Source: Hydrococcus rivularis NIES-593
Lineage (GTDB): Bacteria; Cyanobacteriota; Cyanobacteriia; Cyanobacteriales; Microcystaceae
Length of the DNA stretch: 55,221 nucleotides
Direction of reading: 5' to 3'
NCBI RefSeq assembly: GCF_001904635.1
Contig: NZ_MRCB01000013.1
Coordinates: 76,305 to 131,525, forward strand
Below the pieces are notes generated by a model. The model searched no databases. It was not told where the DNA came from and saw nothing but the letters and a program-made list of their open reading frames with translations. This document shows positions 47,441 through 55,026 of this stretch, piece after piece (positions within the stretch are counted from its first letter, which is position 1; every line of letters begins with the position of its first letter). Made by a program: the position numbers and the translations under genes.

Positions 47441-50400
47441 ATGGAACGATTGCTCGATCGCCTTGCTCTAGAGCAAGTCATTGAACGTTCTCCGCTGACG
47501 ATTTCGCCAGATATTTCCGTCGTCGATGCGATCGCCTTGCTTGCTCGAACTCAAGCCAGTTGCATCCCGGTAGTAGAAGACTCTAAATTAGTTGGGGTAT
47601 TTTCGCCCAAGGATGTGGTTCGCCTCGTCGCTTCTGGAGAGGACTTATCTGGAGTTAGAATCGATCGAGTAATAGAGCAGCCAGTCATAGCGCTAAAACT
47701 ATCCGACTCCGATAATCTCTCTACAGCTTTGTCCCTGCTGCACCAGCAGGGGACTTGCTCTTTACCCGTATTAGACGAAAGAGAGTGCTTTGTAGGACTG
47801 GTGAGTGCCTGCCAACTCTGGGGAATGCTCAGGCAAAAAATAGAGAGGCAGGTAGACGAAGGAACCGACGAGCTTGCCTGGACTAATGCGCTATTGCAAA
47901 AGCGCGAACGACAATTGAAACTTGCCTTGCAAGCTGCTCAACTCGGTTCCTGGGAACTGGATTTAAAAACGGGAGAGCTATCGTCATCGAGCCAATGCAA
48001 AGCCAACTTTGGATTGCCTCCTGAAGCTGACTTGTCCTACGCCAGACTATTTGAACTCATCCATCCCGACGATCGCGATCGCGTGCGAGAATCTCTCAGG
48101 AGGGCGATCGAGCAACAGACAGATTATGAGGCAGAATACCGCAATATCTGGCTCGATGGCAGCATTCATTGGGTCTTAGCCAGAGGTCGCGGCACTTGCG
48201 AAACCGACGGCACTCCGACTTCTATGCTTGGCGTTACCCTCGACATTACGGAACGCAAGCAAACCGAAGAAGCACTGCGCCAAAGTGAGGCTCGGTTGCA
48301 GAAGTTAGCCGCCAACCTACCAGGAGTCATTTATACATTTGTCATCTATCCCGACGGCTCGATGAAATTTGAGTACATTAGCGAAGCGTGCCGGGAAATT
48401 CAAGAAATAGAGCCAGAGGAAGTTCTCAGAAACGCTGCTATTTTGTACGAACAAATTCATCCCGAAGACTTGCAAAAAGTTCTCGCAGCCAATGCCATGA
48501 GCGCCCAAACCTTAGAACCGTTTGCCTGCGAATGGCGCATCATCACTAAATCGGGAAAACTCAAGTGGGTGCGAGCTATTTCTCGACCGGAACGCCGCGA
48601 CAACGGAGAGACAGTTTGGTACGGTACGCTATTAGATATCAGCGATCGCAAGCTAGTCGAGGAACAGTTGCGCCAGAGCGAAGCACGTTTTCAAATACTA
48701 GCTCGCGCTACCAACGATGCCGTCTGGGACTGGAATTTACTAACCGATGAAATCTGGTGGAACGAAGCCGTACAAACGCTCTTTGGTTATTCAAAAGAGC
48801 AAGTCGGCACCGAGGTGAGTTGGCGATACGAAAATATACATCCAGAAGATAGAGAGAGAATCGTTGCTGAAATTCATAACATCATCGATCGCGATCGACA
48901 GTACTGGTCGAACGAATATCGCTTCCGACGCGCCGACGGCTCTTATGCCGACATCTTCGATCGCGGCTATATCGTGCGCGACAATACGGGCAAACCAGTC
49001 CGCATGCTCGGCGCGATGATGGACATCAGCGATCGCAAACGAGCTGAAGAAGCGCTTCGGCAAAGCGAAGCCACTCTCCACAGCTTCTTTGACAGCGCCC
49101 CCACGATGATGGGAATTGTCGAACTGCGAGATAACGACATCGTGCATCTCGTCGATAACGCAGTGACGGCGCAATTGTTTGGCAGAACGCCCGCAGCCAT
49201 GCAAAATCAGTTAGACAGCCAACTAGGCATACCGCAAGAACACATCAGCCTGTGGCTCGATCGCTACCGCGAAGCCAAACGCACTGGAATCCCCGTTCGC
49301 TTCGAGTACTTTCACCCCGTTCCTGGCGGAGTTAAATGGCTATCTGCTATCGTTTCTGCCATTGCAGGCGGTTCTGAAAGCCATCCGAGATTTGCCTATA
49401 TTGCCGAGGACATTACCGAACGCAAAAGGGCAGAAGCAGCCCTGCGAGAGAGCGAAAAGTGCTTTTACAATGCCTTTGAATATGCCGCCATCGGCATGGC
49501 ACTGGTAGCGCTCGACGGTCGCTGGCTCAAAGTGAACCGTGCCTTGTGCGAAATTGTCGGTTACTCGCAAGAGGAATTACTCGCTACTAGCTTTCAGGCG
49601 ATTACCCATCCAGAGGATTTAGAAAGCAGCATCGCTTACATGCGGCAACTTCTGGCAGGCGAGATTAACACCTACCAGATCGAGAAGCGTTACCTTCATC
49701 GACAAGGGCATACTGTTTGGGTTTTGTTAAGCGTGTCCGTCGTGAGGGACGATCGCGGTCAACCTTTATACTTCATCGCGCAGATTCAAGATATCACGGC
49801 TCGCAAGCAAGCAGAAGCCTCGCTTCGGGAGAGCGAAGAACGCTGGCAGTTAGCTATCCGCGGCACTAACGACGGCATTTGGGACTGGAACGTTAAAACC
49901 AATGAAGTCTTTTTTTCGCCTCGCTGGAAGGAAATGCTGGGATACGAAGACGGAGAAATTGCCAACCATCTCGATGAATGGTTAAAACGAGTCCATCCCG
50001 ACGATCTCGGTTGGGTAACTCAAGCTCTTGAAGATCACTTCAATAAGAAAACCCCTTTTTATATCACCGAACATCGCGTCCGGTGCAAAGATGGGACTTA
50101 TAAATGGATTCTCGATCGCGCTCAAGCGTTGTGGGACGAACGAGGTAATGTTGCTCGCATGGCAGGATCTCATACCGATATCACCGAGCGCAAGCAAAGA
50201 GAAGAACTTTTAGAAAACATCGCCCGTGGGATTTCCGCAGAAATTGGCGAAGCCTTCTTCCAGTCATTAGTTAAATATCTCAGCAAAGCCTTAAAGGTTG
50301 AATATGCTTTCATCAGCGAAATCGTCGATCCAGAAAGCAATCTCGCTAGAACGGTTGCAGGCTACGGCGACGGTCGCGCGATCGAGAATTTTGAGTACGA

Positions 50401-51943
50401 TCTGACTAATAATCCCTGTGGAGATGTTATCGGCAAACAGATCTGCGTCTACCCTCAGAACTTGCAGCAGCAATTTCCCCACAACGACATCCTTCAACAA
50501 ATAGGAGCCGAAAGTTATTTAGGCGTTCCTTTATTTGACTCGTCCGGTCGGACTTTAGGTGGAATCTCCATCCTCAGTCGTCAGCCACTGCGCGACGCTC
50601 GATTGATGGAAGAAACGCTGAAAATCTTTGCCGTTCGTGCCGGGTTGGAACTAGAACGCAGACAGGCAGAAGCCGAATTGGTACGCCAAAATCAACGCTC
50701 TCACCTTTTTTCTGAAATTACGCTAAAAATTCGCCAATCCCTGCAACCCGAAGAAATTCTCCAAACCGCAGTTACCGAAGTACAAAAACTGTTGAGTGCC
50801 GATCGCGTTTTGGTTTTTCGGCTGTGGGACGACGGTTCGGGAACGGTCGTGCAAGAAGCCGTCTTGCCAGATTTCTCCGAGATTCTAGGACAACAAATTT
50901 ACGATCCCTGCTTTAGTCGAGATTATCAACAGAAGTATCGTCAGGGAAGGGTAAGCGCGATCGCAGACATTAGAAATGCTGGCATTGAGTCCTGCCACGT
51001 CGAGTTGCTCGAACGATTTGGCGTGAAGGCTAACCTAGTGGTACCGATTCTTCAGCGGGAAAAGTGCTGGGGCTTGCTCATTGCCCACCAATGCGATCGT
51101 CCCCGACAGTGGAGCCGTTTTGAGATCGAGTTGTTACAGTTGTTGGCCAACCAAATTGGCATTGCCCTCGCTCAGGCGCAACTGTTAGAGGGAGAAGTGC
51201 GCCAGCGTCAGGAATTGGCTCGCTCCAATGCCGAATTGCAACAGTTTGCCTACGTGGCTTCCCACGACCTCCAAGAACCCCTGCGGATGGTAACGAGCTA
51301 TTTGCAACTTTTGGCAAAACGATACCAAGGCAAGCTTGATGCTAGAGCCGACGAGTTCATTGCCTATGCCGTGGACGGGTCGAACCGAATGAAAACCCTG
51401 ATCGATGACTTGTTGAGCTATTCTCGCGTCAGCACTCGCGCTCAACCTTTTGAACTCGTGGATTGCAATGTTATTTTGGAGATGGCGATCGCCAATCTCC
51501 AAGTTACTATTAACGAGACTGGCACAGCCATTACCCGCGCTCCCTTACCCCAAGTTATGGCCGATGCGACTCAACTGATGCAGTTATTTCAAAACCTCCT
51601 TAGCAACGCCATCAAATTCCGAACCGAAGGCGTTCCCCCACAAATTCACATCGGAGCAGTTAGAAGGCAGGAAGCAGCATCTTCCCCCGCTTCTTCTTCC
51701 CAAGAATGGCTGTTCTGGGTACGCGATAATGGAATAGGCATCGAGCAACAGTATGCCGATCGCATCTTTGCTATCTTCCAGCGCTTGCACGGTCGAGGCA
51801 AGTATCCGGGAACGGGGATCGGACTGGCAATTTGCACAAAGATCGTCGAGCGGCACGGCGGACGCATTTGGGTAGAGTCAGAATTTGGCAAGGGGGCGAC
51901 TTTTTACTTCACTATTCCAGAGCGAACAGGTAATCTATCGTGA
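47441..51943 (+). CDS. CBS-PAS-GAF hybrid sensor histidine kinase with a DXCF cyanobacteriochrome-type GAF domain
   Basis: A 1500-residue soluble kinase. Domains in order: two CBS units (about 1-130), six PAS domains (about 158-923, each ending DITERK, DISDRK or a close variant), GAF1 (about 923-1072), GAF2 (about 1085-1246), HisKA with His1275 (SHDLQEPLR), and HATPase ([23 protein letters not shown]). GAF2 carries DPCF at 1155-1158 and Cys1185-His1186, 28 residues after Cys1157, within [21 protein letters not shown]. This is the bilin-binding signature of DXCF cyanobacteriochromes, so a light input (blue/green type) is inferred. It overlaps the next gene by 4 bases. Confidence 0.93.
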
Positions 51944-52386
51944 GCGAGCGAGACTTTAATAAACCAATCGAGATCTTGCTAATAGAGGACAATCCTGGCG
52001 ATATCGAGCTAACTAAGATTGCCCTGGAAGATAATAAAATGACCATCAATCTCAGCGTGGTAGAAGATGGCGTAGAGGCACTAAAGTTCTTAAAAAAAGA
52101 GGGGAAATACGCTAATGCACCTCACCCAGACCTAATCTTACTCGATCTCAACCTGCCTAAAAAAGATGGTCGCGAGGTGCTCGCAGAAATGAAAGCCGAT
52201 CCAATCCTCAAACGCATTCCGGTCGTAATTCTCACGACTTCCCAAGCCGAAGAAGATGTCCTGAGAGCCTACAATCTTTGTGCCAACTGCTACATTACCA
52301 AACCCGTTGACTTCGATCGGTTTGTTAAAATCGTGCGCTCTATCGAAAATTTTTGGTTTACTATCGTCAAATTACCGCCAGAGTAG
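51940..52386 (+). CDS. Response regulator, Rcp1-like single receiver
   Basis: A 148-residue CheY-fold protein without output domain. Phosphoacceptor Asp69 ([13 protein letters not shown]), acidic pair ED in [14 protein letters not shown], Thr in [10 protein letters not shown] and Lys in [11 protein letters not shown] are all present. The EDNPGD start and [12 protein letters not shown] end match Rcp1, the partner of phytochrome Cph1. The GTG start overlaps the kinase stop (GTGA), indicating translational coupling. It should be phosphorylated by the upstream kinase and/or relay to the downstream hybrid kinase. Confidence 0.95.
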
Positions 52387-52413: not shown

Positions 52414-55026
52414 ATGACCAATGATCGAATCAAAGTTTTGTTAGTAGAAGACAACCCTGGTGATATTCTGCTGTTGCAGGAATTGTTGCGGGATGTCAGT
52501 TCGACTCAGTTTGAGTTAACGCCTGTCGAGAGTCTGGGCGAAGCCTTTTCGTCCCTTGCTCGCCAGAGCTTTGATGTCGTTCTGTTAGATCTCTCCCTGC
52601 CGGATAGCCAGGGATTAGAAACCTTCGTCAAAATCGATCGCGCCTTTCCAATTCTTCCCATCATCGTGCTAACGGGTTTAGACGATGAAACCATCGCCAT
52701 TCGCGCCATGCAGGAGGGAGCGCAGGATTATTTGGTCAAAGGACAAGTCGATGGAAACTTGTTGGGGAGAGCGATTCGTTATGCGATCGAACGCAAGCAG
52801 GCACAAGAGGAGCTACGGCAGCGGGAACGCCAATTAAGCGCGGTTTTTAATAGCGCTCTTAACGCGATCGTCATTGCCGATGATGAGGGCAGATATATCG
52901 ATGCCAACCCATCTGCCTGCGAGCTGTTTGGGGTTTCTAAAGAAGAGTTGCTCGATGCGAGAATTGCCGATTTTGCCGAGCCGAGGTATGATTTCGCTCG
53001 CGCTTGGCAATCGTTCCGAGAGCAGGGACAGATGGCTGGCGAGTTTCGCCTGCGCCGTCGGGATGGCACGGTTCGGGAGGTAGAATTTGCCGCAACGGCT
53101 AACTTCCTGCCCCACCGACATTTGTCGATTCTGCGAGACATCACCGAAAGCAAAACAGCCGCACTCGCCCTCAAACAGCAGACAGAAACTTTGCAGACGA
53201 TTTTTGACAATATTCCGGTCATGTTGAGCTTCTACGATGCCAACGGTCGGATACAAATGATTAACAAAGCGTTTGAAAAAACGTTGGGTTGGTCGTCAGA
53301 GGAACTTAAAGAGATAGATGTCCTAGCCGAAAGCTATCCCGACCCGGACTATCGCGCCTTAGTGGTAGAATTCATGCAAACTGCCGACGGTAGCTGGAGG
53401 GAGTTTCACACCAGAAATCGCGCGGGGGAAATTCTAGAAACTTCTTGGGCAAACGTTCGCTTGCCGAATGGGTTTAATGTGGGCATTGGCCAAGATATCA
53501 CCGAGCGCAAGCGTGCCGAACAGAAAATCTACGAACAAGCCGCACTTTTAGAGATTACTACCAATGCCATTCTCGTGCGCGATCGCGCTAACCGAATTAT
53601 CTTTTGGAACAAAGGTGCCGAACAACTCTATGGCTGGAGTGCCCAAGAAGCCATCGGGAAAAACGCCACCGACCTACTCTACAAAGAAGCTACGCCCCAA
53701 ATCGACTTAGCCCTACAAACTGTCATCGAGAAAGGTGCGTGGCAGGGCGAATTGCACAAAATCACTAAAGCTGGCAAAGAAGTCATCGTCGAAAGCCGTT
53801 GGACGTTGGTGCGCGACGAAGCCGGACAACCCAAATCAATTTTGACCGTCGATACCGACATTACCGAGAAGAAGTCCTTAGAATCTCAGATTCTGCGCGC
53901 CCAACGTCTAGAAAGCCTCGGTACGCTGGCTAGCGGGATTGCCCACGACCTCAACAACATTCTCACTCCGATTCTGACCACCGCTCAACTCTTGCCGCTC
54001 AAACTGCCCGATTTAGATGAGCGCAGCTTGCAATTGCTGAAATTACTCGAAGGCAGCGCCAAGCGCGGCGCGGATTTGGTCAAACAAATTTTGTCGTTTG
54101 CACGCGGCGTTGAAGGCAAACGTGCCGTAGTACAAGTCGGGCACCTGTTATGGGAAGTGGTCAAGATTGCCAAAAGTACCTTTCCTAAATCTATAGAAAT
54201 CGAAGCCGATATTCCAACCCACGAACTGGGAACGGTTTTGGCAGATGCTACGCACCTGCATCAGGTTTTTATGAACCTAATCGTTAATGCGCGAGATGCT
54301 ATGCTCGATGGCGGCAAGCTAACGATTACTGCTAAAAATGTCGTTATAGACGAAAATTATGCGAAAAAAAATCTTTATGCGAAAGCCGGACGCTATCTCG
54401 CGATCGCGATCGCAGATACGGGGGTGGGAATGTCTCCCGAAGTTCTCGATCGCATTTTTGAACCGTTTTTTACGACTAAAGAAGTCGGAAAAGGAACGGG
54501 ATTGGGTCTGTCAACGACTTTAGGAATTATCAAGGGTTATGGCGGCTTTATTACTGTTCGCAGCCAGGTGGGAGAAGGCAGTGAATTTAGAGTCTATCTG
54601 CCGCAAATTGACGACGTGCAAAAGCTAGCAGAGGCCGAGTCTCAATTGCCCAGAGGACGGGGAGAATTGATTTTAGTAGTAGATGACGAAGCCGCCGTGC
54701 AAGAGATTACGCAAACCTCCCTAGAAGCTCACGGCTACAAGGTCCTTATCGCTGGCGACGGAATCGAAGCGATCGCCCTCTACGCGCGTCATAAAGATGA
54801 AATTAAAGCAGTCCTGATGGATATCATGATGCCGTCGATGGATGGCACGACAGCTATCCGAACCTTGCGCAAGTTCGATCCCCATGTTAAAGTCATTGCT
54901 ACCAGCGGTCTCGTTTCTAATGAAAAGATTATTAAAGCTTCTGGTGCAAACATCCAAGCCTTTTTATCAAAACCCTACACCTTGAAGGATTTATTAAACG
55001 TGCTGCACGAGGTGATTAGTCGTTAA
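52414..55026 (+). CDS. Receiver-PAS-histidine kinase-receiver hybrid
   Basis: An 870-residue hybrid. An N-terminal receiver (VLLVEDNPGDILLLQ; phosphoacceptor Asp59 in LLDLSLPD; Lys in DYLVKGQ) runs to about 125, followed by three PAS domains (about 140-490, joints DITESK, DITERK, DITEKK). HisKA with His511 (SGIAHDLNNILTPI) is followed by HATPase (NLIVNARDAM, DTGVGM, GTGLGLS), and a C-terminal receiver from about 750 with Asp803 (VLMDIMMPSMDG) and FLSKPY. It begins 27 bases after the Rcp1-like gene, so it is the third gene of the operon. The receiver on each side of the kinase suggests multi-step phosphotransfer. Confidence 0.95.
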   Translation: MTNDRIKVLLVEDNPGDILLLQELLRDVSSTQFELTPVESLGEAFSSLARQSFDVVLLDLSLPDSQGLETFVKIDRAFPILPIIVLTGLDDETIAIRAMQEGAQDYLVKGQVDGNLLGRAIRYAIERKQAQEELRQRERQLSAVFNSALNAIVIADDEGRYIDANPSACELFGVSKEELLDARIADFAEPRYDFARAWQSFREQGQMAGEFRLRRRDGTVREVEFAATANFLPHRHLSILRDITESKTAALALKQQTETLQTIFDNIPVMLSFYDANGRIQMINKAFEKTLGWSSEELKEIDVLAESYPDPDYRALVVEFMQTADGSWREFHTRNRAGEILETSWANVRLPNGFNVGIGQDITERKRAEQKIYEQAALLEITTNAILVRDRANRIIFWNKGAEQLYGWSAQEAIGKNATDLLYKEATPQIDLALQTVIEKGAWQGELHKITKAGKEVIVESRWTLVRDEAGQPKSILTVDTDITEKKSLESQILRAQRLESLGTLASGIAHDLNNILTPILTTAQLLPLKLPDLDERSLQLLKLLEGSAKRGADLVKQILSFARGVEGKRAVVQVGHLLWEVVKIAKSTFPKSIEIEADIPTHELGTVLADATHLHQVFMNLIVNARDAMLDGGKLTITAKNVVIDENYAKKNLYAKAGRYLAIAIADTGVGMSPEVLDRIFEPFFTTKEVGKGTGLGLSTTLGIIKGYGGFITVRSQVGEGSEFRVYLPQIDDVQKLAEAESQLPRGRGELILVVDDEAAVQEITQTSLEAHGYKVLIAGDGIEAIALYARHKDEIKAVLMDIMMPSMDGTTAIRTLRKFDPHVKVIATSGLVSNEKIIKASGANIQAFLSKPYTLKDLLNVLHEVISR

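Follow-up and report, generated by a model that had tools for sequence, protein, structure and literature searches.

The stretch analysed here (the window) comprises 55,221 nucleotides of Hydrococcus rivularis NIES-593 and carries three consecutive signalling genes on the forward (+) strand. An ORF of 1500 amino acids (47441-51943, +) encodes a sensor histidine kinase with a CBS domain, a weak second CBS stretch, six PAS domains, two GAF domains (GAF1 and GAF2), HisKA and HATPase_c. The stop of the kinase gene overlaps by 4 bases with a gene for a single-domain response regulator of the Rcp1/RcpA kind (51940-52386, +), whose predicted phospho-acceptor is Asp69 (52144-52146). The third gene of the set encodes a hybrid kinase with two REC domains, PAS domains, HisKA and HATPase_c (52414-55026, +).

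At the N-terminus of the sensor kinase, CBS domain 1 (residues 12-64; 47474-47632, +) scored above the Pfam cut-off. A preliminary description of this DNA had counted two CBS domains; the second CBS-like stretch (47696-47809, +) reached 18.9 bits against a cut-off of 24, so that only the first passes Pfam, and PDB matches to CBS proteins extended into the weak second stretch. Six PAS stretches, the number given before, were found by NCBIfam sensory_box and five by Pfam PAS_3 between residues 150 and 925 approximately (47888-50215, +). The last PAS was most similar in the PDB to 3mr0 (7.7e-32), a similarity from which no ligand can be derived. GAF1 (50249-50653, +), found by domain search, and GAF2 (residues 1103-1243; 50747-51169, +), found by Pfam, are followed by HisKA (Pfam, residues 1266-1330; 51236-51430, +), with the predicted phosphorylated His1275 at 51263-51265, and by HATPase_c (residues 1375-1495; 51563-51925, +), which covers profile positions 2-110 and has a 14-residue motif and GTGIGLAI. 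A motif check found the kinase motifs intact in the ORF. The HATPase_c match of the kinase in genome G001 of the same genus (L136 2029-6402) spans only profile positions 2-78 of 111. Two other identities were rejected. Pfam matched no PHY domain after a GAF in the kinase at E 0.001, ruling out a phytochrome, and the protein scored 154 bits against a cut-off of 865 for the NCBIfam scytonemin sensor kinase family.

GAF2 contains the motif DPCF at residues 1155-1158 (50903-50914, +), with Cys1157 at 50909-50911, and Cys1185-His1186 (50993-50998, +), Cys1185 being predicted by alignment to be the canonical bilin cysteine. Both motifs had been reported and were read again in the translated ORF, and the segments ANLVVPI and WGLLIAHQC were likewise found in GAF2. 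The cysteines are 28 positions apart and so enclose 27 residues, not the 28 that had been stated; the interval proposed for the domain (50695-51180) spans the Pfam domain but begins out of frame. When the kinase was shuffled 20000 times, D.CF with a Cys 28 positions further on came up 13 times.

PDB sequence searches placed GAF2 closest to RcaE (8k9o, 1.1e-44; 7ckv, 2.3e-43), followed by 6oap (1.2e-42) and TePixJ (3vv4, 5.1e-32). An AlphaFold model of GAF2 was built from 58 sequences (pLDDT 89.3, pTM 0.86). The top seven chains found with this model by Foldseek belonged to a cyanobacteriochrome-type kinase (6ob8, 6oap and 6oaq; TMq 0.85-0.89) and to RcaE (8k9o), and TePixJ 4fof reached a TMq of 0.83. 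The phytochrome GAF-PHY structure 8w26 ranked eighth with a TMq of 0.92, and fold alone therefore cannot single out cyanobacteriochromes. A midpoint-rooted tree was made from 118 GAFs, and in it the query grouped with three orthologues from its genus (100/96). This group was nested together with RcaE in a clade of 89 rows (100/99); a green/red branch made up 14 of these rows (98/95), and TePixJ and the red/green references fell among the other 29 rows. The query and RcaE were still together in a second midpoint-rooted tree (39 rows, 97/94), in which rows L075 and L114 switched sides. The own_C12 branch was very long in both trees (1.66 and 1.89), so that its placement is unsure. PDB matches, fold search, tree and conserved residues together identify GAF2 as a cyanobacteriochrome domain of the dual-cysteine DXCF kind, and the tree puts it among the cyanobacteriochromes, as had been proposed. 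An extended red/green (XRG) identity was rejected, because GAF2 was not placed with AnPixJg2 and Slr1393g3 in the tree.

The likeness to TePixJ suggested in the preliminary description held for both DXCF cysteines but not for the position in the tree. TePixJ (PDB 3vv4, 4fof, 4glq) shares with GAF2 the GAF fold, DPCF and CH, and Val at the beta-2 site, but is 39-41% identical to it in structural alignments, lies in another part of the tree, and is entered in the PDB as a methyl-accepting chemotaxis protein, whereas the window protein is a histidine kinase. RcaE (PDB 7ckv, 8k9o), the closest solved sequence, belongs to the same clade and is also a histidine kinase, but its row lacks the second cysteine, and the Pro, His and Asn of GAF2 are replaced there by Glu, Leu and Lys. 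The GAF2 query found 25 matching places in the window genome, many with DPCF and CH, and contigs C11, C13, C23 and C66 of this genome carry many more cyanobacteriochrome-type GAFs, several of them in tandem.

A blue/green photocycle by reversible thioether formation is the best prediction for GAF2 from its residues. Alignment gave Pro1156, His1186, Asn1198, Val1136 and Phe1193 as pocket residues, and the photocycle is predicted because the RcaE residues are missing at three tuning positions. The mechanism of DXCF sensors is described in PMC11284453, PMC5240096 and PMC6628166; the pocket residues, taken with the general mechanism in PMC11284453, would favour a blue dark state and a green photoproduct. 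The beta-2 site was mapped onto GAF2 by our own alignment to AnPixJg2. Phe residues at several sites, this one included, characterise twist-trapping sensors according to PMC5240096; Val1136 in GAF2 is the residue of the TePixJ row, and the red/green references have Phe. A teal DXCF identity was rejected, since Val1136 and not Phe occupies this twist-trapping site. It is rather unlikely that GAF2 is a DXCF sensor with a teal, yellow or orange photoproduct, or one that does not form phycoviolobilin. DXCF photoproducts range from teal to orange according to PMC6628166, so that the colour is not readable from sequence alone, and the helix site of GAF2 is Phe1193; the Val at the beta-2 site argues against such a photoproduct. 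Three PF05996 bilin-reductase matches and two haem-oxygenase matches point to a supply of bilin in the genome.

That GAF2 might instead be of the protochromic green/red kind represented by RcaE and CcaS, working with one cysteine and a change in bilin protonation, is highly improbable. RcaE is its closest PDB sequence and the RcaE branch lies within the 89-row clade, but at the three positions that we take to be the protochromic triad GAF2 has Pro1156, His1186 and Asn1198, against Glu, Leu and Lys in the RcaE row. These three residues together with Cys1157 led us to reject an RcaE/CcaS-type identity. The residue after the canonical cysteine also argues against it, being Leu (12) or Met (2) in all 14 rows of the green/red branch and His (50), Tyr (24) or Arg (1) in the other 75 rows of the clade. 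For this position, PMC9415938 gives Leu for RcaE and CcaS, and His for RfpA.

Outside the green/red branch, 70 of the 75 clade rows kept both cysteines and 68 kept a strict D.CF with the canonical Cys. In the remaining five rows the second Cys was missing in four and the canonical Cys in two, one of which lacked both; the dual-cysteine trait is thus not fixed in the clade. As read from these alignments, conservation is a stronger argument for the pair than its frequency in shuffled sequences. We give very little credence to a loss of light function that would leave GAF2 as a dimerisation or relay module, with ligands of the CBS and PAS domains as the true signals, for although a cysteine is gone in some relatives and the front end is large, both cysteines and the scored pocket residues were kept in all four genus rows, with the G001 and G003 copies only 75-76% identical to the query. 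Light may be a minor input beside six PAS domains and the CBS part. The G003 copy (L139, G003:C21) is split into separate ORFs close to the end of a contig, and its match is interrupted by one stop; it represents either a broken gene or an assembly fault. In a neighbouring clade, a GAF of Calothrix elsteri CCALA 953 (L085 7001-7450) retains the second Cys, but Pro replaces the canonical one.

GAF1 was rejected as a second light sensor, as it had no PDB match at E 0.001 and no counterpart of the canonical Cys. It aligned weakly with GAF2 (20% identity, E 0.052); one GAF1 Cys stood beside the DXCF Cys and the canonical Cys was opposite a gap. GAF1-like domains were found in the copies of the genus, in a paralogue on contig C38 and in L174, a locus from another genome of the order (1.6e-23), and of 83 ORFs from other relatives one gave a weak match. 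The paralogue (L137 3797-8893, G000:C38) has a GAF1-like and a GAF2-like domain in a CHASE-PAS-hybrid kinase; its GAF2 is 70% identical to the query and contains DPCF and CH, and Pfam found no CBS in C38.

G001 and G002 share with the window the order DXCF kinase, Rcp1-type response regulator and REC-PAS-kinase-REC hybrid, and each has CBS. The regulator matched PDB entry 5te9 (2e-52) and, nearly over its full length, the phytochrome regulators RcpA (4.2e-45) and Rcp1 (1.9e-42) (PDB 1i3c, 1jlk, 1k68). The difference from these phytochrome systems is the partner kinase, which in the window has a cyanobacteriochrome GAF and no PHY domain. Relatives were taken from 80 named loci, the best 80 of at least 520 when ranked by GAF2 similarity. 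A regulator orthologue (E < 1e-36) directly followed the GAF-bearing ORF at 35 of 77 of these loci; L069, L122 and L124 had too little DNA downstream and were left out of the count. A hybrid match (E < 1e-60) started within 2.5 kb at 40 of the 80, a generous count at this threshold in view of the many paralogues of the hybrid. Taken by themselves, the 16 strongest hybrid matches (E < 1e-249) coincided exactly with a GAF clade of 16 rows close to the query.

The set was also approached from the hybrid. With the window itself set aside, the 20 top-ranking hybrid places in 291 genomes were used, chosen regardless of what lay upstream; four genomes occur twice, and the regions L206, L216 and L221 are short because of contig ends. 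A cyanobacteriochrome-type GAF was present in the fetched DNA at 13 of the 20 places and absent at seven, two of these being cut by contig ends. A regulator at least 62% identical was found at nine of the 20, in nine genomes, and every one of these nine had a cyanobacteriochrome-type GAF (six DPCF/CH, two DDCF/CL and one EEVF/CL). For Nostocales DXCF kinases such as L051-L064, similarity and gene order mark GAF2, HisKA/HATPase, regulator and hybrid as orthologues, but no CBS was found in the first 200 residues at these 14 loci and the GAF1 query had no match in their ORFs. Judged by similarity and gene order, kinase, regulator and hybrid form a recurrent three-gene signalling set, which the preliminary description had missed. 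Pfam found no DNA-binding domain in any of the three proteins. RcaE acts through RcaF and RcaC, according to PMC11480761. One search of open-licence papers for a gene cluster of a cyanobacteriochrome and Rcp1 gave nothing related.

Several GAFs pair a second Cys of the DXCF kind with the Leu and Lys found in green/red sensors. They carry DDCF or DDCL together with Cys-Leu and Lys, occur in L091 (652-1101), L209, L211 and the C12 gene of the window genome (L140 2653-4983, G000:C12), and grouped beside the RcaE type (15 rows, 87/92) at a fork below the starred threshold. One GAF of L174 has DDCF and Cys-Leu. C12 is a GAF-HisKA-HATPase-REC protein, presumably CikA. Judged by their residues, the GAFs that unite DDCF or DDCL with both Cys-Leu and Lys may stand midway between the DXCF and the green/red kinds. 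DPCF/CH, DDCF/CL with Lys, and the EEVF/CL of the RcaE type all precede similar regulators and hybrids.

The arrangement of the kinase had been called unusual. Only within the genus (G000, G001 and G002) did we see the exact order of CBS, six PAS, two GAFs and kinase, and the G001 copy also carries six PAS. Among the best 80 of at least 520 relatives, CBS was counted in the first 200 residues of the 77 ORFs that have their start in the locus, a count that would miss CBS located further on, and was found in three of them (L078, L109 and L128), each with four CBS stretches ahead of one or more cyanobacteriochrome-like GAFs. L171 has CBS, PAS and three such GAFs (DTYF/CH, DPCL/CY and PDTY/CH). 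L174 combines CBS with four sensory_box PAS, with GAFs of which one is GAF1-like, and with a DDCF/CL GAF ahead of the kinase, and this union of CBS, PAS, GAF and DDCF/CL GAF weakens the case for a unique layout. The exact layout was therefore observed in the genus only, yet CBS with a cyanobacteriochrome-type GAF is not unique, as these five loci show. A query made of CBS and PAS1 had matches at E 1e-25 in 52 of 145 genomes of the class; beside the window, four places among the matches listed start at query residue 36 or before. The CBS front end is a lineage-specific addition to the kinase of the recurrent set, and adenylate sensing by the CBS part would be one conceivable role for it. In titles and abstract starts of the open-licence literature, no description of a CBS-bearing cyanobacteriochrome was found.

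The domain family, both cysteines, the kinase motifs and the recurrent gene set are legible in the DNA itself, and the protein with GAF2 is a real photoreceptor kinase of the known dual-cysteine kind that is probably functional. The joint explanation that we consider best, with a probability of about 0.8, is that GAF2 acts as a DXCF blue/green switch that signals through the kinase to the Rcp1-type regulator, with tuning by the front end. For the bilin, the colours, the direction of the signal, the choice of partner and the role of the CBS part, we infer the following course. Cys1185 would hold phycocyanobilin permanently, probably isomerised to phycoviolobilin, and in the dark state Cys1157 would form a second thioether at the bilin C10, giving blue absorption. 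Light would flip the 15,16 double bond, the second thioether would be broken and a green-absorbing form would result. The long C-terminal helix of GAF2 points towards HisKA in this scheme and would alter the phosphorylation of His1275, from which phosphate would pass to Asp69 of the adjoining regulator. The regulator probably feeds the hybrid kinase, and the N-terminal CBS and PAS domains may have a tuning effect on the output, possibly through bound nucleotide.

A broader proposal is possible, if tentative. Kinase, regulator and hybrid could be a fixed chassis on which the GAF colour type changed in evolution, the forms that join DDCF or DDCL to Cys-Leu and Lys being steps from thioether to protochromic switching, and the CBS added in the genus letting energy state gate light.

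The kinase is a confident and easily testable candidate for a dual-cysteine light sensor, and the recurrence of the gene order allows its likely partners to be named. A comparison of kinases from this set whose GAFs differ in colour type would directly test how blue/green sensing shifted to green/red under a constant output. If the CBS part binds a nucleotide, it would open a way to study how a single protein brings light and energy state together.
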